64,000 nucleotides of DNA. Source: Gymnodinialimonas sp. 202GB13-11. Its GTDB lineage: Bacteria; Pseudomonadota; Alphaproteobacteria; Rhodobacterales; Rhodobacteraceae. Of the stretch, positions 1,127 through 13,558 are shown piece by piece. Below the pieces are notes generated by a model. It made no database searches. It was not told where the DNA came from and saw nothing but the letters and a program-made list of their open reading frames with translations. Location: NCBI RefSeq assembly GCF_040932485.1, contig NZ_JBFRBH010000001.1, positions 3,646,212 through 3,710,211 on the forward strand, written 5' to 3'. Made by a program: the position numbers and the translations under genes. Position 1 is the first letter of the stretch; every line of letters begins with the position of its first letter.

Positions 1127-1786
1127 ATGACCCGCACAGCACTCGTGACCGGAGGCAACCGAGGCATCGGCTTTGCCATTGCCTCCGGCCTGACTTCAAA
1201 AGGCATCGATGTTGTCATCGGGTCGCGTGACGCAGTGGCGGGCCGCGATGCAGCGCACCGGATCGGCGCCCGATCCGTTCAACTCGACCTCCAGGACCGA
1301 GCATCAACAGAAGCGGCAATATCCCAAATCGACGATGTCGAAATCCTCGTCAACAACGCGGGCGTTTTGGGAACCGGCGATCTTTTCAGCGACGACGCGC
1401 AGTTCAAAGCTTCCATGGAGGTGATGGTTGACGGGCCTTACCACCTCCTAAAGGCGGTAACTCCCTACATGAAACGCAACGGCTACGGGCGCATCGTCAA
1501 CGTATCATCTGGCTGGGGGGCATTCTCGGATGGTGTCGCAGGGCCCGGTGCTTATGGCGTTGCCAAGGCTGCGCTGAATGCACTGACCGTTTCCGCCGCG
1601 CGCGCCTTGCCGGAAACGATCAAAATCAATGCCATGTGTCCGGGCTGGGTGCGCACGCGCATGGGCGGATCCAGTGCCTCGCTATCCGCCGAGGAAGGCG
1701 CGGATACCGCGATTTGGCTGGCAACACTGCCTGAAACCGGGCCGACTGGGATGTTCTTCCGGGACCGCGAGAGAATTGGATGGTGA
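1127..1786 (+). CDS. short-chain dehydrogenase/reductase (SDR)
   Basis: A 219-residue NAD(P)-dependent SDR. The nucleotide-binding motif TGGNRGIG is at about residues 8-15. NNAGVLG follows, with a catalytic Ser in NVSSGWG and YGVAKAAL as YxxxK. The C-terminus FRDRERIGW is typical of the carbonyl-reductase-like SDRs. I start at ATG 1127 because GGAG lies 6 bp upstream. A longer in-frame start at 1073 has no ribosome site and lengthens the protein beyond the usual fold. The substrate is unknown. It is the likely target of the divergent LysR gene. Confidence 0.92.
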   Translation: MTRTALVTGGNRGIGFAIASGLTSKGIDVVIGSRDAVAGRDAAHRIGARSVQLDLQDRASTEAAISQIDDVEILVNNAGVLGTGDLFSDDAQFKASMEVMVDGPYHLLKAVTPYMKRNGYGRIVNVSSGWGAFSDGVAGPGAYGVAKAALNALTVSAARALPETIKINAMCPGWVRTRMGGSSASLSAEEGADTAIWLATLPETGPTGMFFRDRERIGW

Positions 1787-1817
1787 GTGGACGCATATCA
1801 TGGACAGTCGTGCGACT

Positions 1818-1860
1818 GAGCCAAGGTTTGGTTTTGTGCTTGTAGCGCACGGCTTGGCTC
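1818..1860. other. inverted repeat between convergent genes
   Basis: GAGCCAAG (1818-1825) and CTTGGCTC (1853-1860) are perfect inverted arms separated by 27 bases, in the 245-bp gap between the SDR and the convergent glycosyltransferase. There is no T-run directly after either arm, so intrinsic termination is possible but not clear. I see nothing else in this gap. Confidence 0.35.
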
Positions 1861-2031
1861 AAAGCAGGTTTTCGAGATGGGCAACTGCGCCGCAGGGAAG
1901 CGTTTCCTGAAGCAGGAGCCGGTAATTGACGCAGCCGGCCGGGCGTTCAGAGCTCAAAAGCTGACCTTGATACTATTTGCGCCCCGCAAAGTTCCTCCAT
2001 CGATGTGTGCGATGCAGTCCAGAGCCTTCAT

Positions 2032-3867
2032 TTATGCCACACGAACCGGGCCTGTTGGTGTGACGTTCTTCTTGGTCGCTAATTCGAGATCTTCTCCTTG
2101 ATGGCCCACCAAGATGCTCATCATGGACTCAAGCGTGAAATAGGCGCGCAGGACGCGAAAGATAAGGTATTCCGGCAAGGCGAGGATACCCTTAGGCACG
2201 CCGTTAAGGAGCGACGCAATCACGGCCATGATCGCAGGCGCGCCGGTTGTGACCGCAACGACCGCTTGCCACACGATGGGGCTGTTGGGGTTGAAGGCAA
2301 ACACGCACTCCAGCGCGCCATAGATTATCAATGGAACGAGCATCGCGCGTCGGGCGGAATTAACCAGCATGTAGGGCAGGATGATCTTGCCCCTGAGCGA
2401 GCCATTGCCGGAATAGATCAGGTCCCGACAGCGCGACGAGATGTGGTAGATGGATCGGAACCAACGCATCCTCTGTTCGCGCATATGCTCGTAGGCCGAC
2501 GGCACTTCGGAGATATAGCGGATCTTGGGATCGACCACGGAATGGTAGCCAAGCTCTCCGATGCGCAGGGACACGTCTGTGTCTTCGCCGTTCATCCCCT
2601 CCACGAAGCCGCCGAGGTAGCGCGGGTGTTCGGTGCGGTAGACCACGAACATGCCGGGAATACCGACGACCCCGTTCACCGCGCCCATGGCGACGGAATA
2701 AAACCCGTGTTTCACCAGCACCTCCAGAAGCCGCGCGCGATCGAACAGCGCGCCACCGGGCGGTACGGGGACGCCGCCGACAACGCCGACGGCGGGATTT
2801 GTGAAGTAGGGCATGGCGCGGGTGAGGTTGTCTTCGCCAACCAACGTGTCTGCGTCGACGCGGACAAGGAATTCGGTCTCGGCCGCGTCGAGGCCCGCGT
2901 TCAAGGCGTTGGACTTGCCGGGTTTTGGTACGTTAATCACACGACCCAAAGCGGCCTCGCAGGAGGCGAGCGTGGCATTCGCGATCTCTTCGGTGGCGTC
3001 GGTGGAGTTGTTGTTCATGATCAGGATGTGCACCTCACCGCCGTAATGGGCGGCGGCGCGGTCCATGACCCGGACCGTGTTCTCGATGATATATTCCTCG
3101 TTATGGGCGGGCACGATGATGGAGACAGGCGGGTTGAATTTGGGTGTTTTCGCCGTTTTCACATCCCAGATCGCGAGCGCGTAAAGCTGCGCGAAGAGGA
3201 CCGGGAGAACGAGAAACACGCCCGGCCCGATGCCACCCAGAAGGGTCCAGCTGCGCAGGCGCTCGACCAGTTCAAGCTGTAACGACGTGACCCAAATCGA
3301 GGTCGCGATGGCGATGGCGATGGTGACGAGCAGCCGGATGATGGCGCGACGGTTGCTGACGGGGCGATGTTCAACGGGGATGCGCACAGGCATCAGGCCA
3401 CGCTCGAGCAATTTCCAAGAATAGATGCAAAAGCCCAGAAGGCCGGACGCGATGGCGCTGAAATGCAGGGAAAAGGCCAGATCGAGGGCCAAGTGGCCCG
3501 CCACGTTCGCCAGATCGAAGATGGCGCAGATCAGGGCATAGGTGAGGACCATATCGAGGCCGAAAAAGAGTTTTCCCTTCCAATCGGCCGAGGAAAAGGC
3601 CGCGAAGCTGATGAAGAAGGCGATTAGAAAGATGCGGATCGCGATGGAGTGCCGCCCCTCGTAAGGGGAGAATACGAGGTCGCGGTTGGGAAAGATCGCC
3701 GCCCCGGTGGGGGAGTTGACGGCCAGCAGCATGGCGACGGCAAGCAACGTGAACAGGGCCAGCATGGCAGGGCCACGCCATTGCGGGATAAAGCCCGCGA
3801 ACCGCTTGGGCGCGCTGTCGACTGAGATGAAGGCGATCTTGTCGCGGTTGTCTTCGGCCTCGCTCAT
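2032..3867 (-). CDS. membrane GT2 polysaccharide synthase (cellulose-synthase-like)
   Basis: A 611-residue processive-type family 2 glycosyltransferase. About six hydrophobic segments occupy residues 30-230. The catalytic domain begins near residue 240 with VSIIVPAHNEE. It carries RVDADTLV (D,D of the DxD pair), NGEDTDVSL (acceptor-site Asp) and QRMRW, the QxxRW signature of cellulose, hyaluronan and PNAG synthases. Three more membrane segments follow. No PilZ domain is visible at the C-terminus, unlike BcsA. The start is ATG 3867, because it forms an ATGA overlap with the upstream gene; 38 upstream in-frame codons look like readthrough of that gene. It is probably the polymerase and export pore of an extracellular glycan. 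The product sugar is not determined by sequence. Confidence 0.88.
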   Translation of the reverse strand: MSEAEDNRDKIAFISVDSAPKRFAGFIPQWRGPAMLALFTLLAVAMLLAVNSPTGAAIFPNRDLVFSPYEGRHSIAIRIFLIAFFISFAAFSSADWKGKLFFGLDMVLTYALICAIFDLANVAGHLALDLAFSLHFSAIASGLLGFCIYSWKLLERGLMPVRIPVEHRPVSNRRAIIRLLVTIAIAIATSIWVTSLQLELVERLRSWTLLGGIGPGVFLVLPVLFAQLYALAIWDVKTAKTPKFNPPVSIIVPAHNEEYIIENTVRVMDRAAAHYGGEVHILIMNNNSTDATEEIANATLASCEAALGRVINVPKPGKSNALNAGLDAAETEFLVRVDADTLVGEDNLTRAMPYFTNPAVGVVGGVPVPPGGALFDRARLLEVLVKHGFYSVAMGAVNGVVGIPGMFVVYRTEHPRYLGGFVEGMNGEDTDVSLRIGELGYHSVVDPKIRYISEVPSAYEHMREQRMRWFRSIYHISSRCRDLIYSGNGSLRGKIILPYMLVNSARRAMLVPLIIYGALECVFAFNPNSPIVWQAVVAVTTGAPAIMAVIASLLNGVPKGILALPEYLIFRVLRAYFTLESMMSILVGHQGEDLELATKKNVTPTGPVRVA

Positions 3868-5354
3868 GCCGCGTCCTCCGGCACATGCACGAGGAGGGAA
3901 ACGGCCTGTATCTCTCGCCCCGCGAACTCTGCGGCGGGTTGCGCCGAGAGGGTGCCGGCAGCGTCCCGGAAGACCAGCCAATAGCTTTCGCTCACCGCGA
4001 CCCGCGCCCCGCGTGGAAGGATTGTTACCGTCGCGTTGGCCTGCGCTGCGCTGATGGGCGTATGGGGCAGGAGGGCCACGAGAAGCTCTGCGGCGACGTT
4101 CGCCTCTGCGCTATTGAGCGATTGTGGGGACGCGACAGAGATATCCGAGGTCAACGCGAGGCTGAGCGCGCGGATGGGATCGTCGAAGAGCGCGCTGGAG
4201 GGCACGATCTGTGTCTCTGGCAGGATTTCGGCGAGGAGTTCAGGACCATCGTTGCATTCGCCATCCCGCAGGAAGGCGGAGGTCAGGGTGATTTCAATCG
4301 TGTGGGCAGGGCCAAGGTCGGCGGGGATCGCGATGCGCGCGCCGATCCGCGTCTGGTCGGCAGTGCCAGAGAAATGGCTGAGCAGGCGGTCATTTTGCGT
4401 GACCGTGATCTGCCAATCCGCGCCCAAGGGGTGGGCGGGGACAAGCATGGCAAGGTCCAACACGCTGGGCCGGTTTGCGTGCTCCGCCCGCGTGAGATCA
4501 TAGCGCAGACGCCATGTGTGGCTGTGCTGGAAGCGGCGGAGGCCGAACAGACCACCCTCGGGCGCCATCGCGTCGGACCATGCGTATTGCGGGCGGGACA
4601 CGGCTGCGGCGGTGGGATCAATGGCCGCCTGCGCCTCTTGAGGGTTGAGGCCCATCTCTGGCACGATCAGGGCGTTCGTTCCAAGGCGCGCGGCGTTGAC
4701 CGCGTGGATCAACGTCTCTGTCGTGCCTGTCCATTCCAGTCGCACCTGATCCCCCCAGGCCGCGACGCGGTCACGCGGGCTTTCAAGCGGTGCGTCGAGG
4801 GACAAGTAAACAGCGCTGGTCGTCTCGATCTCGACCACAGCCTCAATTGAAGTGTCGTTGGTGCAGACGAGGTTGGCACCCGTCCCCTGCAGCGAGAAAG
4901 AGACGACCAGCTGTGCCCGTGCGATATCGGCTGGGGTCAGCTCGATCCGTACGGCGCGCACCGCCTCACCTCGATGCAGCAACACCTCAGCCCGGCGGGT
5001 GTTGTCGATGGAGATGCGCAGCACCCCTTCGACCCCGTCCAACACTTGCGATGTCGCATCGATTTGGAGGTATCCAGATGTCGGGCGTGCGTCGATTGGC
5101 ATATGAAACACAGCACCCTGATAGGCGGGAAATCCAGAAAGAATGAGCGGCGCGGAGGCGCCCGCCCGCAAAATGATGGCCTGATCCGCACCGCGTTGGG
5201 CCTCAGCAGCCATCGGGGTTTCAAAGCGCAGTTGCGGCCCGTCCATCAGGGTCCGCGCGGCGCGAAAGGTTTGGCCGACCATTTCGGATCGCGCCAGCAG
5301 GAGGGCCAAACCTGCAAGAAGAAATGCCAACAGCCCGATGCCAATCAGTCTCAT
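3864..5354 (-). CDS. BcsB-like periplasmic partner of the GT2 synthase
   Basis: About 496 residues with an N-terminal signal or anchor (LIGIGLLAFLLAGLALLLA) and a largely beta-rich periplasmic body. The segment around residues 140-190 (VSFSLQGTGANLVCTND) and a later CNDG resemble the Cys-containing jelly-roll modules of BcsB. Unlike BcsB, no C-terminal membrane helix is seen and the protein is shorter. It overlaps the GT2 gene by ATGA, so the two are probably translationally coupled and form a complex. I use ATG 5354, which has AAGG 8 bp upstream; an ATG two codons earlier is too close to that site. The family call is moderate and the pairing with a GT2 synthase is the main support. Confidence 0.65.
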   Translation of the reverse strand: MRLIGIGLLAFLLAGLALLLARSEMVGQTFRAARTLMDGPQLRFETPMAAEAQRGADQAIILRAGASAPLILSGFPAYQGAVFHMPIDARPTSGYLQIDATSQVLDGVEGVLRISIDNTRRAEVLLHRGEAVRAVRIELTPADIARAQLVVSFSLQGTGANLVCTNDTSIEAVVEIETTSAVYLSLDAPLESPRDRVAAWGDQVRLEWTGTTETLIHAVNAARLGTNALIVPEMGLNPQEAQAAIDPTAAAVSRPQYAWSDAMAPEGGLFGLRRFQHSHTWRLRYDLTRAEHANRPSVLDLAMLVPAHPLGADWQITVTQNDRLLSHFSGTADQTRIGARIAIPADLGPAHTIEITLTSAFLRDGECNDGPELLAEILPETQIVPSSALFDDPIRALSLALTSDISVASPQSLNSAEANVAAELLVALLPHTPISAAQANATVTILPRGARVAVSESYWLVFRDAAGTLSAQPAAEFAGREIQAVSLLVHVPEDAA

Positions 5355-5390
5355 CGTCATTGCCTTTCTGCAAAAGACCCGACCGCGGTT

Positions 5391-5434
5391 GAGCGCCGGT
5401 CAGCCCCACCTCCACGCGGGGCTGACCGGTGCTC
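5391..5434 (-). other. strong intercistronic hairpin
   Basis: CCGGTCAGCCCC and GGGGCTGACCGG pair perfectly over 12 bp, extended by GAGC/GCTC, around a 10-base loop. The hairpin lies in the gap between the sqdB-like stop and the BcsB-like start on the minus strand. No T-run follows directly. It is more likely an attenuator or an mRNA-stability or processing element than a full terminator. Confidence 0.6.
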
Positions 5435-5443
5435 AGTTCGGGG

Positions 5444-6655
5444 TTAGGCGGCGACCTTTTCGGGGGTGACGACGCCGGGGCGCTGGTTCTCCGTCCAGGT
5501 GGAGACACACGGGATCATGTGCATGATGCAGCGATCCGCGTATTTGGCGGCGATTTCCTGCGTTTCTTCCATCAGGCCATAGGCCAGCGTGACCGGTTCG
5601 AGCCCGAGGTCGATGAACGACGCGTTCGACACGCGCAGGCCATTCTCGGCCGCCTCGTTGCGGGGATTGTCGACCATCGCGATCTGGGCTCCGGTGTTGG
5701 CCGCAACCAGTTGGGCGAGAGACCGCACTGTGTGCGTCTCGGTCATCTGATTCATGATCTTGACCTTGCCGTCTTTGGCCGGCGGATTGTCGACCGCCAG
5801 GGCGATGCATTTCACCGTGTCCTTGACGTGGATGAATGCGCGGGTCTGGCCGCCGGTGCCATGGACGGTCAGCGGGTGGCCAACGGCGGCCTGCATCAGG
5901 AAGCGGTTCAGGACGGTGCCGTAGTCACCATCGTAGTCGAACCGGTTGATCAGACGCTCATCAAGGCGCGTCTCATCGGTTTGCGTTCCCCAGACGATGC
6001 CCTGGTGTAGGTCGGTGATCCGCAGGCGGTCGTTCTTGGCGTAGAATTGGAACAGCAGCTGATCCATCGATTTGGTCATGTGATACACGCTGCCCGGGTT
6101 GGTCGGGTAGAGGATGTCACGCTGGAAGATCTGCTTGTTGTCGCCGGGCACGAAGACGCGCAGGTAGCCTTCGGGGATTTCCATCCCGTCATCGTCGTAG
6201 CCGTAGACGCCCATGGTGCCGAGGTGGATCATATGCGGGTCGAGGCCCAGTTCGATCACAGCGGCCAGAAGATTGTGCGTGGCCGAGATGTTGTTGTCGA
6301 CGGTGTAACGCTTTTCCTCGATGCCCTTCATCGAATAGGGCGCGGCGCGCTGTTCGCCGAAGTGGATGATCGTGTCAGGCTTGAGCGCGGCCAGAAGGCC
6401 CGTCAGGCGGTCGAATTCACGCGCCACGTCGATGCATTCGAAATTGATCGTCAGGCCGGTGACGTCGTGCCAGGCCTCAAGCCGCTCTTCCACGGTTGCG
6501 ATCGGCGTCAGGCTGTCGGCGCCCATTTTCTTGTCGATCCAGCGGCGCGAGAGGTTGTCGACGATGGTCACGTTGTGACCCAGTTTCGACAGGTGCAGGG
6601 CCGTGGGCCAGCCACAGAAACCATCGCCACCGATTACCAGAATTTCCTTCGTCAT
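5444..6655 (-). CDS. sqdB: UDP-sulfoquinovose synthase-like NAD-dependent epimerase
   Basis: A 403-residue extended-SDR protein matching the SQD1/SqdB group. Visible signatures are the dinucleotide motif GGDGFCGWPTALHLS, the post-strand SRR, HFGEQRAAPYSM, GTMGVYG and the catalytic YHMTK (YxxxK). LHQGIVWGTQTDET is near-diagnostic of the family. Known members make UDP-sulfoquinovose from UDP-glucose and sulfite. None of the usual sulfolipid partners (sqdC, sqdD or an SQDG glycosyltransferase) is adjacent. Instead the gene precedes a BcsB-like/GT2 pair, so the sugar may go into an extracellular polysaccharide. It has an AAGGAC ribosome site. A related but different epimerase activity cannot be excluded. 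Confidence 0.85.
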   Translation of the reverse strand: MTKEILVIGGDGFCGWPTALHLSKLGHNVTIVDNLSRRWIDKKMGADSLTPIATVEERLEAWHDVTGLTINFECIDVAREFDRLTGLLAALKPDTIIHFGEQRAAPYSMKGIEEKRYTVDNNISATHNLLAAVIELGLDPHMIHLGTMGVYGYDDDGMEIPEGYLRVFVPGDNKQIFQRDILYPTNPGSVYHMTKSMDQLLFQFYAKNDRLRITDLHQGIVWGTQTDETRLDERLINRFDYDGDYGTVLNRFLMQAAVGHPLTVHGTGGQTRAFIHVKDTVKCIALAVDNPPAKDGKVKIMNQMTETHTVRSLAQLVAANTGAQIAMVDNPRNEAAENGLRVSNASFIDLGLEPVTLAYGLMEETQEIAAKYADRCIMHMIPCVSTWTENQRPGVVTPEKVAA

Positions 6656-6789
6656 AGTCTTTGTCCTTTTGGTCAGGTGGGCCGCCTCCGTGGACGTGCC
6701 CTCGTTTCGATGACCAAGGATTTACGGACGATTTCGCTCGAATTGCGCACTCCGAGGGATAGGAAACCGGGGAGATGGAAGGGGGCATC

Positions 6790-6803
6790 TATCCTTTTGG
6801 ATA
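6790..6803. promoter_or_regulatory. 14-bp inverted repeat upstream of sqdB-like gene
   Basis: TATCC-TTTT-GGATA is a perfect 5-4-5 inverted repeat about 135 bp before the sqdB-like start. It matches the TATAC-TTTG-GTATA repeat at 9913-9926 in arm length, spacer length and most positions. I infer a binding site for the LuxR-type response regulator encoded nearby. Confidence 0.5.
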
Positions 6804-6809
6804 TGCGTG

Positions 6810-9305
6810 CTAGCCGGTCGGATCGGTCTGCTGAAGTCGATCGGTCAGATCTTTACGTCCGGCAGAAATCGCCCCCTGCAGGGCCGCCACCGCCTGTCGG
6901 TTCATGGTGGCGCCGTCCAGTGCATCAATCTGCGTGATAACGGATTTCAATCCCAAGAGTGCCGCCCCGCCTCGCATCTTGTGCAAGATTGCGGCAACAT
7001 CGCTTTCGGGCGAAGACAGCACGTCCAGTTGCGTTTCACTTTCCGCGAAGAACGCATCGGCCGTCGCTTTGACCTTTTCCGGCCCGAGAACGTCGATCAG
7101 ATCATCGATCACCTCGGCGTCCAGTCCGGCAGGTGAGGCCGATTGTGCATCGGCAGAAACGACGTCATGCAAAGCAGAGAACCGGATGGGTTTGGTGAAA
7201 AAGCCGTCCATGCCCGCCCGAATGGCGCGGTCGCGGTATTCTTCGCGCCCATGGGCCGTAAGCCCCACGATGCGGGTTCTTTGGTTTGGCCCGGCCTCCG
7301 CCCTGATCCGCCGCGCGGTTTCGATGCCATCCATGACGGGCATCGAGACATCCATGATGATCAGGTCGAAGGCGGACTGTTGTGCTTGATGCAAACCGTC
7401 CAGCCCATCGGAGGCCTCCGTCACGCTGTGGCCAAGCCTCTCCAGCATGTCGCGCAGGACCGAGCGGTTGATGGCGTTATCCTCGACAACCAGAATGTGT
7501 TTCGTTTGCGCTGTGTCTGCCAGTCTTTCATCGGCAATTTCGTTCGATGCTGCCTCGGCCACGGCTTTTGCGCGGGCCAAGGGGATGCGCAGAGTGAAGA
7601 CGCTGCCTTGGCCAATGGTCGATTGCACCGACAGCTCACCGCCCATCAGCCGCGCCACCTTGCGCGAGATCGACAATCCCAGCCCATCGCCGCGCGCCTG
7701 GCGGCCTTCGGAATGCGCCAGGGCGACGAAATCCTCGAACACGTCTTCCAGCCGGTCTTCGGGGATCCCGCGACCCGTATCTGAGACGGTGATTGTCGCA
7801 TTGGTGAGGTCAGCGCCGTGAATGCCGGAAACGGACACCACGATCTGGCCATCTTCCGTGAATTTGATGGCGTTGCCGATGAGGTTCGTCAGGATTTGGC
7901 CGATGCGCGCGCCGTCCCCGTCGAAGATCCGGTCCATGCCGGGGTCGAAGTCCAGCGAAAGAGACAGGCCCTTTTCCTGCGCCAGCGGGGTGAGCACGTC
8001 GCAGACACTTTGAACCGCAGGCCGCATCTCGAACGGGTGTGGCGACAACTGCATCGACCCCATTTCGATCCGCGTGATGTCGAGCGCCTCGTTCACATGT
8101 TCCAGCAGGATCTCACCCGATGCAGAGGCGACGCGCATGTACCGGTCCTGCTGTTTTGTCAGGCGGGTTTGCCGCATCAGGTCGAGCACGCCGAGGATAC
8201 CGTTCAGAGGCGTGCGCATTTCGTGGCTCATCACGGCCAGGAATTGCGACTTCGCACGGTCCATAGCTTCGGCCTTGTCGCGTGCGTCGATCAGCTTCTG
8301 CTCGTTGATCTTTCGCTGCGAGATGTCTCGCAGATAGGCAATAAAGAGCTCTCCATTGGCGCTTTCAACGGAGGTGATGTTGAGCTCTACCGGGAATTCC
8401 TCACCCGATTTGCGCAGGGCCGAAAGCTCCACCCGTCCGGCATCGACGACATGGGGTTCGTGGGTCGCCAGATAACGCTCCATCCCGGCGGCGTGCGCTT
8501 TGCGGTGCTGGTGGGGGATGATGGTTGCTTCCATTTTCTGCCCGAGGATCTCTTCCCGCGACCACCCGAAAATCCGCTCTGCCGAGGCGTTGAATTCGAT
8601 AATCTCGCCAGCTTCATTCGCAGTGACGATTGCGTCGAGTGACGCCGTAACGGTCGAGGCAAGCCGTGAGCTGGAGTTCAGCAGCTCCGTATCTCGCTGA
8701 TCCGCGCGTGCTAGCAATCGATCAAGGACGACCAAGACAGCAGAGAGGCCAACGATCACGGCAATTGCGATGGCGCCAGTTATGGTAAGTTGGCGTGCAA
8801 ACCCGGCGCGCCGCGCCGATGCGCGGTTGGTACCGGCCTCAAGCCCCAAAAGAACAAGGTCGCGGATATCCGGGCGGATGTCGCGGGTCAGATCGCGTAG
8901 AGCGATGATGTCGTTCTCCGACAGGCCAGGGTCGGCATCCAGCACCGCGATCATATCGTCTTGATAGGCGTTCACCCGAGCCAGAAGATCTGCAGCGTCA
9001 CCGGGAAAAAGATCGCGTGCCTCGCCGCGCCCGACGATCAACAGGCGGCTGAGCGCGATGTCAGCCCGCAGGCGCACAGCATCGACATCAGGGGAGGGGT
9101 CGTTGGCGGCCTCGCTCAAGGTCGCGTTGAGGTTGGCGATCTCGGTTTCGACCTGAAGGATTGTCCATTGCAGATTGTCGGCATCCGCGGTGGAGAGGCC
9201 CCGCAGCTCCCGCAACAGATTGCCGCCCAACACGCCCAACAGGACGATCAGCAGCGGCACGACGATCAGCACGCCAATGCGTCTGCGGCCCTTTTTGTCG
9301 GTCAC
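6810..9305 (-). CDS. hybrid sensor histidine kinase (PAS-HisKA-HATPase-REC-Hpt)
   Basis: An 831-residue membrane kinase. TM1 (about 10-30) and TM2 (about 172-195) flank a helical periplasmic sensor region. A PAS domain (about 210-330) has an IEFNASAERIFGW core. HisKA has SHEMRTPLNGILG, and the ATPase has NAIKFTED, DTGRGIPED and GLGLSISR. The receiver has IMDVSMPVMDG. The C-terminal Hpt has HKMRGGAALLG with its phospho-accepting His. All phosphorelay elements are present, so the output is probably the divergent LuxR-type regulator, which lacks its own kinase. It lies 48 bp after the exported oxidoreductase-fold gene, suggesting they are sensed and transcribed together. Confidence 0.93.
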   Translation of the reverse strand: MTDKKGRRRIGVLIVVPLLIVLLGVLGGNLLRELRGLSTADADNLQWTILQVETEIANLNATLSEAANDPSPDVDAVRLRADIALSRLLIVGRGEARDLFPGDAADLLARVNAYQDDMIAVLDADPGLSENDIIALRDLTRDIRPDIRDLVLLGLEAGTNRASARRAGFARQLTITGAIAIAVIVGLSAVLVVLDRLLARADQRDTELLNSSSRLASTVTASLDAIVTANEAGEIIEFNASAERIFGWSREEILGQKMEATIIPHQHRKAHAAGMERYLATHEPHVVDAGRVELSALRKSGEEFPVELNITSVESANGELFIAYLRDISQRKINEQKLIDARDKAEAMDRAKSQFLAVMSHEMRTPLNGILGVLDLMRQTRLTKQQDRYMRVASASGEILLEHVNEALDITRIEMGSMQLSPHPFEMRPAVQSVCDVLTPLAQEKGLSLSLDFDPGMDRIFDGDGARIGQILTNLIGNAIKFTEDGQIVVSVSGIHGADLTNATITVSDTGRGIPEDRLEDVFEDFVALAHSEGRQARGDGLGLSISRKVARLMGGELSVQSTIGQGSVFTLRIPLARAKAVAEAASNEIADERLADTAQTKHILVVEDNAINRSVLRDMLERLGHSVTEASDGLDGLHQAQQSAFDLIIMDVSMPVMDGIETARRIRAEAGPNQRTRIVGLTAHGREEYRDRAIRAGMDGFFTKPIRFSALHDVVSADAQSASPAGLDAEVIDDLIDVLGPEKVKATADAFFAESETQLDVLSSPESDVAAILHKMRGGAALLGLKSVITQIDALDGATMNRQAVAALQGAISAGRKDLTDRLQQTDPTG

Positions 9306-9353
9306 GGCGCGCCTTTCATTTGCTCCGGCCCGACCAATACCGCTGACAAGGTG

Positions 9354-9827
9354 TCATTCCAACACTTCGATCCGGTCCAGTTGCCAGATGCTTTGCGCAT
9401 AGACCTCTTCCGTCTGGTAAGCCGCATCGCTGTCATATGGAAAGACGATCCAGTACGGGCCCTTGTCGCGTACGGACATTGGTGCTCCGTCCATCCGCGT
9501 CGCGATGATCGGATAGGTCGCGCCGGTTTCGGGTGCGGGCATTTCAATGGCGTAGTCATTCAATGCCGTCAGGGTCAGGTCCGCGCCCTCTGCACCGGCG
9601 GCATCCAGAACGCTTGCCAGGGATGGCCCAGTGAACGTCACTTCGCCTTCCGTCCAGATCGTCGTGGTGGTGACCGTGACCTGATCGAGCGCATCCAGAT
9701 CCGCGAGCGAAAGAGACATTTGCTCGCCACCTTCCGGCGTGATCTGAAGGGCGGTCGGATCCTGTGCGATCGCAGGGCATGTCATCGAAATCGCCAGAAG
9801 GGCTGCACAGACGAAGGAGCGAAGCAT
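9354..9827 (-). CDS. exported small molybdopterin-oxidoreductase-fold protein
   Basis: A 157-residue secreted protein with the signal peptide MLRSFVCAALLAISMTCPAIAQ. The mature part has a compact beta domain with FTGPSLASVLDAAGAEG and DKGPYWIVFPYD. These are typical of the short stand-alone members of the sulfite-oxidase-type molybdopterin-binding fold. I see no cofactor-ligating Cys, so it may be a binding or sensing protein rather than an enzyme. The start at 9827 has AAAGG 8 bp upstream; ATG 9845 is an alternative. It lies directly before the hybrid kinase, which suggests an accessory sensing role. Confidence 0.65.
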   Translation of the reverse strand: MLRSFVCAALLAISMTCPAIAQDPTALQITPEGGEQMSLSLADLDALDQVTVTTTTIWTEGEVTFTGPSLASVLDAAGAEGADLTLTALNDYAIEMPAPETGATYPIIATRMDGAPMSVRDKGPYWIVFPYDSDAAYQTEEVYAQSIWQLDRIEVLE

Positions 9828-9912
9828 GTCAGATACCTTTTGCATCACGTGGTTGCCCCGATCTCTAACATTGGGCGCAGGCCGGCATCGTACGGGGATA
9901 GGGATAGGTGTA

Positions 9913-9926
9913 TATACTTTGGTATA
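9913..9926. promoter_or_regulatory. 14-bp inverted repeat in sensor/regulator divergent promoter
   Basis: TATAC-TTTG-GTATA lies between the divergent oxidoreductase-fold gene and the response-regulator gene, about 67 bp before the latter. It is flanked by GGGATAGG-type repeats. It is the counterpart of the 6790-6803 repeat and suits autoregulation by the LuxR-type protein. Confidence 0.5.
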
Positions 9927-9992
9927 GGTCTGCCTCGCCCGAGCCACATTTTCCCCCTAGGCACTTGAGACAACTTCGGAAAAGATTGCGCC

Positions 9993-10604
9993 ATGCCAAA
10001 CATTCTTGTTGCTGACGATCATGATCTGGTGCGTGACACGATTGCGGCCTACCTCGGCCAGCAGGACGATTTTCACGTAGAAACCGCCGATGATCTGGCC
10101 GAAGCGCGCGCACTATTGGAAGGCGTCGTCCCGTTCGATCTGGTCATCCTCGATTACAACATGCCGGGCATGGATGGCCTTGAGGGGATGGAAAGCGTCA
10201 TCAAGGGCTATCCCCATATCAAGGTGGTCTTGATGTCCGGCGTCGCCAAGCCCGATGTCGCGCGCGAGGCGATGACACGCGGGGCCAACGGCTTCCTTCC
10301 GAAATCCGCGACCGCGAAATCGATGGTGAATGCGATCCGGTTTGTTCTGGCGGGCGAGCAGTACTTTCCCTTTGATCTCGCCGAGGCGAAACCCGAGACG
10401 CCCGAAAGTTTCAAGGGGCTGTCCTCCCGAGAAATGGAGACGTTGGAGTTTCTATGCCGCGGCGCGTCCAACAAGGAAATCGCGCGGGCCCTCGATCTGG
10501 CGGAAGTCACGATCAAGCTTCACGTGAAGAACATTCTCGCCAAACTGGGCGTGAGCAACCGGACGCAAGCTGCTTTGCTGGCGAAGGAACAGAATTTGTT
10601 CTGA
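9993..10604 (+). CDS. LuxR/NarL-type response regulator
   Basis: A 203-residue two-domain regulator. The receiver has acidic residues in VADDHD, the phospho-acceptor Asp54 in VILDYNMPGMDG, and LPKSAT carrying the conserved Lys. The C-terminal LuxR-type helix-turn-helix (about 140-200) has LSSREMETLEFLCRGASNKE and AEVTIKLHVKNILAKLGV. It is divergent from the kinase operon and is the obvious partner of the hybrid kinase. It probably regulates the sqdB-like/BcsB-like/GT2 genes and itself through the 14-bp inverted repeats. The 178-bp gap after it, before the convergent btuC, shows no recognised feature. Confidence 0.95.
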   Translation: MPNILVADDHDLVRDTIAAYLGQQDDFHVETADDLAEARALLEGVVPFDLVILDYNMPGMDGLEGMESVIKGYPHIKVVLMSGVAKPDVAREAMTRGANGFLPKSATAKSMVNAIRFVLAGEQYFPFDLAEAKPETPESFKGLSSREMETLEFLCRGASNKEIARALDLAEVTIKLHVKNILAKLGVSNRTQAALLAKEQNLF

Positions 10605-10782: not shown

Positions 10783-11829
10783 TCACCCTCTCCGTCTCAG
10801 CAACGCCACGAAGAACACACCTCCGATTAGCCCGGTGACAATCCCGATCGGCATGTCTTCAGGGGCCATGATGGTGCGCGCGACGATGTCCGCCCAGAGC
10901 AAAAAAATGGCTCCGGCAAGGGCAGACCACGGCAACACGCGGGTGTAGTCGCCACCGACCACCACACGCACAATGTGCGGGATCATCAAACCGACAAACC
11001 CGATCATCCCTGAAAAGGCCACCATCACACCGGTGATCAGTGCTCCTGCAATGAACACCATGCGGCGGAATCGGACCACGGAGATACCAAGCGACGTTGC
11101 GGTTTCATCACCGATTGTCATTGCATTGAGGTCGGCAGCCCGGCGCCAAAGCCAAAGGACGCACGGGATCAAAACGCCAAGCGGGTAGATGAGATGGTTC
11201 CATTGCGCGAGGCCAAGCCCACCCAGCATCCAGAAGACAACCGTATGGGCAGCGCGGGGATCGCCCAGAAAAATCAGTAGGTTGGCAAGCGCCATAATGA
11301 CGAAAGAGACAGCGACGCCCGTCAGAACCAAGCGGTCTGCGCTGCTGGCTCCGGCAAAACGAGAAACCGCCAACACCGCCCCCGTGGCTGCCAACGCACC
11401 AAGGAATGCCAGGACCGGAACCGTCAACAAGCCTAGGAAAAGGCCGGTGTGAAGTAGGGCGAGGATGGCACCAAATGCCCCACCCGATGAGATCCCCAGC
11501 AAATGCGGATCGGCGAGCGGGTTGCGGGTAACGGCCTGTAGGCTGGCGCCAACTACAGCGAGACCCGCGCCGACAATCGCCGCCAGCAAAGCGCGCGGGA
11601 AACGGATCTCCCATACAACTGCTGCTTGGCCCTGGCTCCAATCCGGCGTGACCAAGCCAAAACCGATCTGCTCGGACAAGACCCCCCAAACTGTACGGAA
11701 TGGCACCGAAACGGCACCGACGGAGATGGCAGCGCTGATCGAAAACACCAACGCCACCATACCAATGCCGATCAGGAGGGGCAGATTTCCCCTCCGCCCA
11801 ATTGCCCGATCTCCGGACGAGACGCTCAT
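10783..11829 (-). CDS. btuC: cobalamin ABC transporter permease (FecCD family)
   Basis: A 348-residue permease with about ten membrane helices. It has FecCD/BtuC hallmarks such as WEIRFPRALLAAIVGAGLAVVG, NPLADPHLLGISSGGAFGAI and the cytoplasmic coupling-helix region GFVGLMIPHIVR. It is the last gene of a four-gene minus-strand operon and overlaps the binding-protein gene by ATGA. The family also serves iron-siderophores. The cobalamin assignment rests on the riboswitch at the head of the operon. Confidence 0.9.
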   Translation of the reverse strand: MSVSSGDRAIGRRGNLPLLIGIGMVALVFSISAAISVGAVSVPFRTVWGVLSEQIGFGLVTPDWSQGQAAVVWEIRFPRALLAAIVGAGLAVVGASLQAVTRNPLADPHLLGISSGGAFGAILALLHTGLFLGLLTVPVLAFLGALAATGAVLAVSRFAGASSADRLVLTGVAVSFVIMALANLLIFLGDPRAAHTVVFWMLGGLGLAQWNHLIYPLGVLIPCVLWLWRRAADLNAMTIGDETATSLGISVVRFRRMVFIAGALITGVMVAFSGMIGFVGLMIPHIVRVVVGGDYTRVLPWSALAGAIFLLWADIVARTIMAPEDMPIGIVTGLIGGVFFVALLRRRG

Positions 11830-12761
11830 TCCGGCCAGAACGCTTCGGCCAAGCGGGCCACGGCATTGATGTTTCGCGGCCCAGGCGTGGCTTCGACATA
11901 TTCCAGCACGACGAAGCGGTTGTTCTGAACAGCACTAATCCCCGAAAGGGCCGGGCTGTTGCGCAGGAACTCCATCTTCTGTTCGGCGGTAACTTCACCA
12001 TAGTTTACGATAATGATGACCTCAGGGTCCCGCTCCACCACGGCTTCCCAGCTGACCGTGCCCCAGCTTTCGCGGAAGTCATCCATGATGTTCACGCCGC
12101 CAGCCGCTTCGATCATTGCGGTCGGGATTGCAAAATGGCCCGCCGTGAAGGGGGTATCTTCGCCGCTGTCATAGACAAACACACGCGGTGCTTCGCCTTC
12201 GGTGTTAAGGCCTGCGATGATCTCGGTCAGTTCCGCCTGATAGCCCGAAATCAATGTCTCCGCGCGCTCTTCGACGCCGAAGATTGCACCAAGGTTGCGC
12301 AGGTCATTGTACATCAGATCAAGCGTGACCTCCTGTTCCATCCCAACGTGAATACAGCTTTCGCTCAACTCGTAGACATTGATGCCAAATCGTTCGAGCG
12401 TCTCAGGTGTCACTTCACCGCCGACCCTCATGCCGTAATTCCAACCGGCAAAGAAGAAATCCGCCTCGGCCCCTACCAGCACTTCCGTTGTCGGGTAACG
12501 CTCGGCCAGTTCGGGCAATTCCTCGACCCCTGCGCGCATTTCTTCGTCCAACTTGTTCCAGCCGGAAATGCCAGTATAGCCGATCATCTGGTCGGTCAGC
12601 CCAAGAACCAGCATCATCTCGGTGAGGTTGATGTCGTGGGAAACCGCTGCCTGCGGCACGCCTTCGAATGCAACCTCGCGCTCGCAGGACTGCACAATGG
12701 TCTGTGCCAGTGCGACTGTGCCGATAAGGCTGAAGACTGCGGATAGGGTGAGCGTTTTCAT
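11826..12761 (-). CDS. btuF: cobalamin ABC transporter substrate-binding protein
   Basis: A 311-residue class III binding protein. It has the signal peptide MKTLTLSAVFSLIGTVALAQ, a first lobe with LTEMMLVLGLTDQMIGYTG, a long backbone helix around EERAETLISGYQAEL, and a second lobe ending in ISAVQNNRFVVLEY. I start at 12761, which makes an ATGA overlap with the ATPase gene and begins a clean signal peptide. The 60 extra upstream codons are out-of-frame readthrough of that gene. It sits between the ATPase and permease genes. The ligand is inferred from the riboswitch, not from residues. Confidence 0.87.
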   Translation of the reverse strand: MKTLTLSAVFSLIGTVALAQTIVQSCEREVAFEGVPQAAVSHDINLTEMMLVLGLTDQMIGYTGISGWNKLDEEMRAGVEELPELAERYPTTEVLVGAEADFFFAGWNYGMRVGGEVTPETLERFGINVYELSESCIHVGMEQEVTLDLMYNDLRNLGAIFGVEERAETLISGYQAELTEIIAGLNTEGEAPRVFVYDSGEDTPFTAGHFAIPTAMIEAAGGVNIMDDFRESWGTVSWEAVVERDPEVIIIVNYGEVTAEQKMEFLRNSPALSGISAVQNNRFVVLEYVEATPGPRNINAVARLAEAFWPE

Positions 12762-13558
12762 TGCAGGGGAGTCCTTTTGGTTTGCAAATGGAAGGTGAAG
12801 TGGCGCGTGTCTGAACGGTTGAGCCAATCGGCCCTTGCATCGACGTGAAAGGCGCTGGTGACAAGATCTTCGGTCAGAACCTCTGCAGGGGTTCCAAACG
12901 CTAGTGCCTTGCCCTGTTTGAGGATGAGCAGGTCGTCGCACAGCCCAGCCGCAAGGTTCAGATCGTGCAGACTGGTCACAACTGTCAGGTCGAGGTTTCG
13001 GATCAGATCCAGCACTTCAAGCTGATGCCGGATATCGAGGTGATTTGTCGGTTCATCAAGGATCAGCACCTGCGGTTGCTGAGCCAAGGCTCGGGCAACC
13101 ATCACGCGCTGCCGTTCCCCGCCAGAAAGGGTGCCCATTTGGCGAAACGCCAAGTGAGCGAGATCAAGCTTCAGTAATGCCGCTTCAATTATCGCAGTTT
13201 CCGCTGCGCCGCCTGCGCTGAACCCGTCGCGATGGGGAACCCGGCCCAAAGCCACGACCTCGCCAACTGTCAGGGCGAAATCGGTGGGCTGTTCCTGCAA
13301 GACTGCAGCAACCTTCCGAGCAGCCTTGCGCGGCGGCATCGCCCAGATGTCGTCGCCCCCCACCATGATCCGACCTGTTGCGGGCATGTTGTAGCGATAG
13401 AGCAGCCGCAAAAGGGTCGACTTTCCAGCGCCGTTTGGCCCGACAATGCCCAAAAGCCGACCAGCCGCGACCGAGAAACTGGTGGCGTGTAGTGAAAATC
13501 CTTCTGCCCCGCGCGACGCCCAGGAGGCGTTTTCGACAACCAAATCCGCCGCCCTCAT
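12758..13558 (-). CDS. btuD: cobalamin ABC transporter ATP-binding protein
   Basis: A 266-residue ATPase with Walker A GPNGAGKST, Q-loop LQEQPTDFALTVGEV, signature LSGGERQRVMVARAL, Walker B VLILDEPTNHLD and H-loop TSLHDLNLA. It resembles the FecE/BtuD group that pairs with FecCD-type permeases. It overlaps the DUF1636 gene upstream and the binding-protein gene downstream by ATGA, so the operon is tightly coupled. Confidence 0.93.
   Translation of the reverse strand: MRAADLVVENASWASRGAEGFSLHATSFSVAAGRLLGIVGPNGAGKSTLLRLLYRYNMPATGRIMVGGDDIWAMPPRKAARKVAAVLQEQPTDFALTVGEVVALGRVPHRDGFSAGGAAETAIIEAALLKLDLAHLAFRQMGTLSGGERQRVMVARALAQQPQVLILDEPTNHLDIRHQLEVLDLIRNLDLTVVTSLHDLNLAAGLCDDLLILKQGKALAFGTPAEVLTEDLVTSAFHVDARADWLNRSDTRHFTFHLQTKRTPLQ

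Follow-up and report, generated by a model that had tools for sequence, protein, structure and literature searches.

Few organosulfur compounds are as abundant as sulfoquinovose, a sugar known mainly from plant-type sulfolipids. The locus described here raises the question of whether some bacteria may also build this sugar into a glycan. It lies near the start of a 64,000-nucleotide stretch of DNA from Gymnodinialimonas sp. 202GB13-11 (contig NZ_JBFRBH010000001.1, positions 3,646,212 to 3,710,211), the whole of which is called the window below; the host genome comprises 4.0 Mb in two contigs. In this locus, sqdB, a gene of the uridine diphosphate (UDP)-sulfoquinovose synthase family, is followed by genes for a BcsB-like protein and a membrane glycosyltransferase of family 2 (GT2), and preceded by genes for a hybrid histidine kinase, an exported SUOX-fold protein, and a LuxR-type regulator. 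An earlier note, made from the sequence alone, proposed that the sugar enters an exported glycan rather than sulfoquinovosyl diacylglycerol (SQDG). The present analysis starts from what computation shows directly, i.e., gene content, linkage, predicted folds, motifs, and a palindrome, and makes it fairly probable that the locus is a synthase-dependent glycan system using UDP-sulfoquinovose, predicted to work under its own phosphorelay. The product would most likely be a sulfoquinovose-containing exported glycan.

Genomic linkage can be used as a first indication of where the sugar goes. A survey of 394 genomes of the host's family (with E limits of 1e-60 for SqdB, 1e-20 for SqdD, and 1e-60 for the GT2) gave matches to SqdB in 91 genomes, to SqdD in 59, and to the GT2 in 15. 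Every one of the 15 GT2-encoding genomes also encodes SqdB, at a distance of 57-2274 bp from the GT2. SqdD, an SQDG transferase, was found in one of these 15 genomes, whereas 54 of the 76 SqdB genomes without the GT2 have it (Fisher p 4e-6, with no correction for relatedness); four additional genomes (G053, G159, G330, G374) contain SqdD but no SqdB match at E 1e-60. The sole genome harboring both GT2 and SqdD, G025, has two SqdBs at separate loci: one (L116) stands with the BcsB-like and GT2 genes, and the other (L117), elsewhere, is part of an sqdB-sqdD-sqdC set. Linked GT2-SqdB neighborhoods with the SQDG genes kept apart are what the earlier note had suggested looking for.

These data bear on another possibility, namely that SqdB serves SQDG synthesis via a transferase other than SqdD, the GT2 neighborhood being incidental. 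The window SqdB is the only one of its genome (the next-best match reaches 39 bits), which favors this explanation, and which is the first half of what the earlier note had considered fatal to a glycan, i.e., a sole SqdB whose loss abolishes SQDG. SqdD gave no match in the window genome up to E 1, with the query that recovers the 59 family genomes, in a search that covered SqdD and not SqdX-type transferases; the absence of adjoining sqdC and sqdD was correctly read from the sequence. Nevertheless, the lack of a detected SqdD, the constant company of SqdB and the GT2, the retention in G025 of a GT2-linked SqdB besides a second one with SqdD and SqdC, and the position of GT2-linked SqdBs outside the SqdD-linked clade (see below) all argue against it. 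SQDG is an unlikely fate for sulfoquinovose here, and an incidental neighborhood is improbable. Together with the BcsB fold of the partner protein, these indirect tests support the part of the earlier claim that had the sugar enter a glycan made by a synthase instead of SQDG; the chemistry of the product, its polymeric nature, and its export remain predictions.

The association extends beyond the family. Among 289 genomes drawn from across the class, the GT2 (E up to 1e-40) occurred in three, the window genome, G210, and G635; the latter lies outside the family, and its GT2 is adjoined by SqdB and a BcsB-like gene. A mobilizable plasmid of Rhodococcus qingshengii (L134, NZ_CP054208.1, 204186-211130) consecutively carries sqdB (63% identity), a gene for a 639-amino acid (aa) protein with a BcsB match just under the Pfam cut-off, and the GT2 (41% identity), flanked upstream by a gene for a SulP-type sulfate transporter and downstream by one for an alkyl-sulfatase. 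It has the appearance of an sqdB-BcsB-GT2 system beyond Proteobacteria. SqdB is also found in a third context in Rhodobacteraceae, with neither SqdD nor the GT2 (L145 805-4724, L130 5717-8773, L149 7314-11332). Its neighbors there are DUF4422-GT8 fusions, a sulfotransferase domain, or a large protein that combines GT2 and GT4 parts. Since SqdB stands there beside other transferase types, other sulfoquinovose glycans may exist.

The use of sulfoquinovose depends on the identity of SqdB, which was upheld. The window protein matches SQD1 in the PDB over nearly its full length (residues 3-387, phmmer E 1e-96), and its HFGEQR, LGTMG, and YHMTK motifs, holding the EQR stretch, the catalytic Thr, and the Tyr-x3-Lys, align with those of SQD1. 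In a 131-row alignment, the catalytic motifs HF[G/A]EQR, LGTMGVYG, and YH-x2-K are common to the window protein and to 21 SqdD-linked SqdBs, which are 62-65% identical to it; the variable residue is Gly in the window SqdB and SQD1, and Ala in all 21 SqdD-linked rows. The EQR stretch is gapped in one of 60 GT2-linked rows (L036, a row assigned by length).

The window SqdB could instead make a different nucleotide sugar (a 5,6-ene intermediate or a 6-deoxy sugar), sulfonate not being involved. Its score against NF041015 is 322 bits, under the equivalog cut-off of 575, and Val occupies the position of Agl3 Glu147 (the Glu after TMG), a residue whose mutation strongly impairs Agl3 (PMC4388408). 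SQD1 has Glu there, as does Agl3, and the window SqdB thus differs from both. However, two SqdBs adjoining SqdD score about the same as the window protein (335 and 329 bits), so that this cut-off is not discriminating here, and the shortfall was rejected as a disproof of SqdB identity. Similarly, Val is present in 60/60 other GT2-linked rows and 21/21 SqdD-linked rows, and Glu in only 3/131 rows, all from a group of 38-42% identity. In the Rhodobacter sphaeroides sqdBDC operon, sqdB deletion abolishes SQDG (PMC11346425). Because of this result and of the motifs shared with SqdD-linked SqdBs, UDP-sulfoquinovose activity appears about as likely for the window SqdB as for the latter, and a product other than UDP-sulfoquinovose is very improbable.

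Phylogeny adds information on the history of the pairing. In a quick tree of the 131 SqdB rows, the 21 SqdD-adjoining rows form one clade with full support, and the window SqdB falls within a 43-row clade (some rows being duplicates) of which every row is GT2-adjoining; the 'SqdConly' labels of the trees are rough, SqdC being a common kind of short-chain dehydrogenase/reductase (SDR). A careful tree was then restricted to 82 rows, 49 of the 131 being removed by hand (near copies and longest branches), and in this tree the GT2-linked rows require at least four changes. A single clade of GT2-linked SqdBs was rejected by the approximately unbiased (AU) test (p-AU 1e-45), although long branches remain. 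The GT2-linked SqdBs fall in several lineages outside the SqdD-linked clade, one of them on the Rhodococcus plasmid. Since a single clade was rejected, the GT2-SqdB pairing has, on these trees, either arisen more than once or persisted while the SqdB lineage changed. That a GT2-BcsB set joined, or was kept with, several SqdB lineages is hard to explain unless the GT2 needs the SqdB product.

What the GT2 would do with this product is suggested by its motifs and fold, which agree with a synthase-type enzyme, as first proposed. Hydrophobic helices, recognized by eye, flank the GT-A domain on both sides, and the motif residues (D290, D338-x-D340, N426-G-E-D429, Q465-R-x-R-W469) are invariant in 25/25 sequences and in a 19-sequence set including the Rhodococcus relative. 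The structure model has a predicted local distance difference test score (pLDDT) of 84.1, and its Foldseek matches are PcManGT first, followed by hyaluronan synthase and BcsA. PcManGT is a mannosyltransferase and also the best phmmer match, which would suit transfer of a single sulfoquinovose to a lipid or protein carrier, with no polymer being formed; the invariant NGED and QRxRW, the helices on either side of the GT domain, and the BcsB-like partner point away from such a role, which is rather unlikely. As hyaluronan synthases, among the nearest folds, use two donors, the GT2 might also polymerize glucose or another sugar, with sulfoquinovose contributing only part of a mixed glycan or decorating it. 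This is possible but doubtful, and no second sugar-nucleotide or glycosyltransferase gene is found among the clusters common to most GT2 loci. No PilZ match was obtained in the GT2 at E 0.001 (Pfam), and control by cyclic di-GMP (c-di-GMP) via PilZ is therefore not expected.

The name of the BcsB-like protein is weakly supported in Pfam (23 bits, E 3e-5) and was sustained at the fold level. Its model (pLDDT 86.8) shows an N-terminal helix followed by alternating beta-rich and alpha/beta parts, as in BcsB, without the long C-terminal helix. Each of the top 22 Foldseek matches in the PDB (E 1e-17 to 2e-12) is a chain from a cellulose-synthase entry, with BcsB named in 18 of the titles, and from rank 23 onward the matches are unrelated beta-rich proteins (E 8e-10 and worse). 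The template modeling (TM) score of about 0.4 and the root-mean-square deviation (rmsd) of 7-12 over the whole chain indicate that the domains are arranged differently. Judged by this model, the partner has the BcsB fold. A search of the window genome with PF03170 for a canonical cellulose system came back empty, but its first pass missed even the window BcsB-like protein, and the result therefore carries little weight.

Conservation of the locus was examined in the best 80 of 481 relatives from a genome collection, where two uncultured Roseicyclus genomes have the closest SqdBs (99% identity). The GT2 is present in 42 of these 80 loci, 38 of which also have the BcsB-like gene, and all six genes occur in the window order in 24. 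Among culturable Roseobacters, Tateyamaria omphalii, Ruegeria atlantica, and Octadecabacter algicola carry the six-gene locus. The ATGA coupling reported by the earlier note is present in the sequence, and among the 37 loci in which both genes are called, 33 retain an ATGA or GTGA overlap. This locus set and the family survey overlap (L046/G257, L023/G195, L040/G032, L041/G211), and their counts are therefore kept separate; the SqdB and GT2 sequences of L004 are identical to those of L005. The GT2 frame is just 274 aa long in an Amylibacter metagenome-assembled genome (MAG) (L029 10832-11656) and 919 aa long in a Marinicaulis MAG (L043 10949-13708).

Some of these relatives suggest how a chain might leave the cell. 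Shimia-type loci (L033 6678-11181, L038, L039, L042) have a porin-type gene 5' of SqdB (checked for L033 against the Porin_4 family) and no BcsB-like match, and L123 is of the same variant, combining a porin-type gene with SqdB and the GT2 and likewise lacking a BcsB-like match. L139 and L140 consecutively encode a porin-type protein, the BcsB-like protein, and the GT2, with SqdB facing them on the opposite strand. Another barrel-like gene (by eye) abuts the GT2 in L122 and L138, and its relative lies 5' of SqdB in L127. These barrel-type genes suggest an outer-membrane exit. By contrast, the glycan could be an acidic periplasmic glucan retained between the membranes, like osmoregulated periplasmic glucans. 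The operon of the window has no porin, BcsC, or hydrolase gene beside it, and a sensor kinase with its N-terminal segment external to the membrane could plausibly monitor the envelope or salt. Still, the Foldseek matches of the partner are BcsB, and the porin-type and other barrel-like genes of these relatives count against such a scheme; retention in the periplasm has a small chance of being correct.

Two other kinds of genes recur 3' of the GT2 in relatives, an RTX-type repeat protein (by eye) and a weak-Sel1 protein (L014 12738-15421, and also L025, L026, L027). The RTX-type gene is also found in L019 and L021, and the weak-Sel1-type gene in L018, L024, L028, and L036. Their products are perhaps matrix proteins.

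The gene content and order given in the earlier note were recovered at the same positions (Table 1). The regulator gene, on the plus strand, diverges from the five others, all on the minus strand. For the SUOX-fold gene, the open reading frame (ORF) list gives a GTG start at 9947, and an ATG at 9845 was judged likelier by eye. An SDR gene followed by a LysR regulator gene lies 3' of the GT2, neither being a polysaccharide gene according to Pfam. Adjoining the regulator, positions 10783-13558 of the window hold an apparent iron-siderophore or hemin ATP-binding cassette (ABC) uptake set (permease, binding protein, ATPase), identified by eye from the translations.

Table 1. Features of the locus, with positions in the window.
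Feature	Position	Strand	Basis or remark
GT2 synthase, 611 aa	2032..3867	-	Pfam, motifs, structure model and Foldseek; membrane nature by eye
BcsB-like partner, 498 aa	3864..5360	-	Pfam (weak), structure model, Foldseek
ATGA overlap, bcsB-like stop/GT2 start	3864..3867	-	sequence
SqdB, UDP-sulfoquinovose synthase family, 403 aa	5444..6655	-	PDB SQD1 match, NF041015, motifs, trees
Palindrome CTATMC-N4-GKATAG, 1 mismatch	6789..6804	unstranded	about 135-150 nt 5' of sqdB, directly past the kinase stop codon
Hybrid histidine kinase	6810..9305	-	N-terminal sensor segment, PAS, HisKA, HATPase, receiver (Pfam); Hpt-like tail (motif)
Exported SUOX-fold (PF00174) protein	9354..9845	-	Pfam E 6e-6; start and signal by eye
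Second palindrome copy, 1 mismatch	9912..9927	unstranded	between regulator and SUOX-fold gene, 66 nt 5' of regulator ATG
LuxR/NarL-type response regulator (receiver and GerE)	9993..10604	+	Pfam; co-conservation

The system appears to carry its own switch. The hybrid kinase was confirmed by Pfam; its Hpt part, claimed along with it, is backed by a motif, an HKMRGG-like pattern in 9 of 12 kinases examined, with no Pfam Hpt match at E 0.001. The SUOX-fold gene precedes the kinase gene and stays with it across relatives. In the window, its product lacks cysteine beyond the signal, and in 21 relatives none occurs past residue 53 of the called ORF, for which reason a molybdoenzyme was rejected, and it is probably a sensor accessory.

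Two-component control is further supported by a palindrome common to the sqdB and regulator promoters. When up to one mismatch is allowed, it gives 43 matches across the 24 six-gene loci, all at these two promoter places (20/24 loci 5' of sqdB, 23/24 between the regulator and the SUOX-fold gene, 19/24 at both), compared to about 2.2 in total expected from simple block shuffles of the loci. The whole window genome contains it at four places, two of which are these promoters, versus 21 for the reversed-pattern control, and the switch therefore looks dedicated to one operon. Among SqdB loci without the GT2, it was found once in 38 loci (578 kb), 5' of the L069 sqdB, and not at all in 17 further ones (269 kb). 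Six of the 18 GT2 loci lacking the full six genes have one copy each (five at 124-162 bp 5' of sqdB and one inside sqdB), and in a second, overlapping set, 6 of 16 GT2 loci have it, with nine matches, all 5' of sqdB or in the regulator region. This distribution ties the palindrome to loci of the six-gene type and their closest relatives, and not to every GT2 locus. It is a candidate operator of the LuxR-type regulator, for its own locus and for the sqdB operon. A scan for sigma-70 promoters and terminators gave results near the shuffle level.

Several observations weigh against a synthase-dependent sulfoquinovose glycan under a dedicated phosphorelay. The Val at the Agl3 Glu147 position and the rank of PcManGT as best GT2 match have been described, and chain growth by the GT2 is deduced from motifs and fold. 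L051 has SqdB followed by a BcsB-like match in an ORF of about 659 aa (1140-3154), and no GT2 match in the available DNA; in the quick tree, its SqdB clusters with that of Rhodococcus. No outer-membrane channel gene stands beside the window operon, and the L122 barrel found no match in the window genome, in a search lacking a positive control. The clade submitted to the AU test was named only after the first tree had been inspected. The palindrome is absent from 12 of the 18 incomplete GT2 loci and from 10 of the 16 in the second set. It was, moreover, drawn by eye from the same promoters in which it was later counted, so that the counts there are not independent, whereas its rarity elsewhere is.

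With these points taken into account, the synthase-dependent glycan system could function as follows, with enzyme activities, polymerization, export, and DNA binding that we infer. By homology, SqdB would convert UDP-glucose and sulfite to UDP-sulfoquinovose. In hyaluronan synthase, one membrane enzyme both polymerizes and translocates an acidic glycan; the membrane GT2, like it or BcsA, would, judging from motifs, folds, and linkage, add sulfoquinovose to a chain and move the chain across the inner membrane, where the BcsB-like protein would receive it. The sulfonated acidic glycan would end at the surface or in the periplasm, and in some relatives a locus-encoded beta-barrel may provide the outer-membrane exit. 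The SUOX-fold protein and the hybrid kinase would sense a signal for the phosphorelay, and the LuxR-type regulator would bind the palindrome 5' of sqdB and of its own gene.

A bolder version, put forward tentatively and with more doubt than confidence, is that the GT2 polymerizes UDP-sulfoquinovose alone. The product would then be polysulfoquinovose, a sulfonated cellulose-like homopolymer made by bacteria ranging from Roseobacters to a Rhodococcus with a plasmid copy and commanded by an operon-devoted phosphorelay, i.e., a bacterial acidic polysaccharide charged by carbon-bound sulfonate. Even in its general form, a bacterial sulfoquinovose glycan would, if true, constitute a new marine sulfonate source and a new acidic polymer, one that sulfoquinovose degraders might use as a substrate. 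The operon offers a short gene list, a 16-base candidate operator, and a genome with both systems (G025), making the question testable at once.

A 2026 review names sulfolipids and archaeal N-glycans as locations of sulfoquinovose, and the word 'polysaccharide' is absent from the portion of its text that was available (PMC12890257). Among the matches listed from the open-licence literature, judged by title and start of abstract, none concerned a bacterial sulfoquinovose polysaccharide or an sqdB-BcsB-GT2 operon.

Like BcsA-BcsB, the locus encodes a membrane GT2 that bears D, DxD, ED, and QxxRW motifs and is paired with a BcsB-fold protein. Nevertheless, the window GT2 has no PilZ match, and thus no c-di-GMP site was seen, its partner is shorter, with a helix only at the N-terminus of the model, bcsC and bcsZ do not adjoin the operon, and the GT2 is paired with SqdB throughout the family genomes that have it. 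Hyaluronan synthase, a fold neighbor of the GT2 model, works without a BcsB-like partner, and its acid is a carboxylate. The sqdBDC operon of Rhodobacter sphaeroides and rhizobia has the same UDP-sulfoquinovose synthase family and catalytic motifs, but here SqdD is lacking, the transferase is a GT2 with a BcsB-like partner, and the SqdB lineages are separate. The Agl3 system of Sulfolobus acidocaldarius also uses UDP-sulfoquinovose for glycoconjugates (N-glycans) rather than a lipid (PMC4388408; PMC12890257), although it is archaeal and builds a short protein-linked glycan via another route. Finally, as in NarL/FixJ-type regulators acting with hybrid kinases, a receiver is joined to a LuxR-type helix-turn-helix with a predicted inverted-repeat site; what differs is that half of the genomic copies of this site lie at the window locus, giving a dedicated-looking switch.

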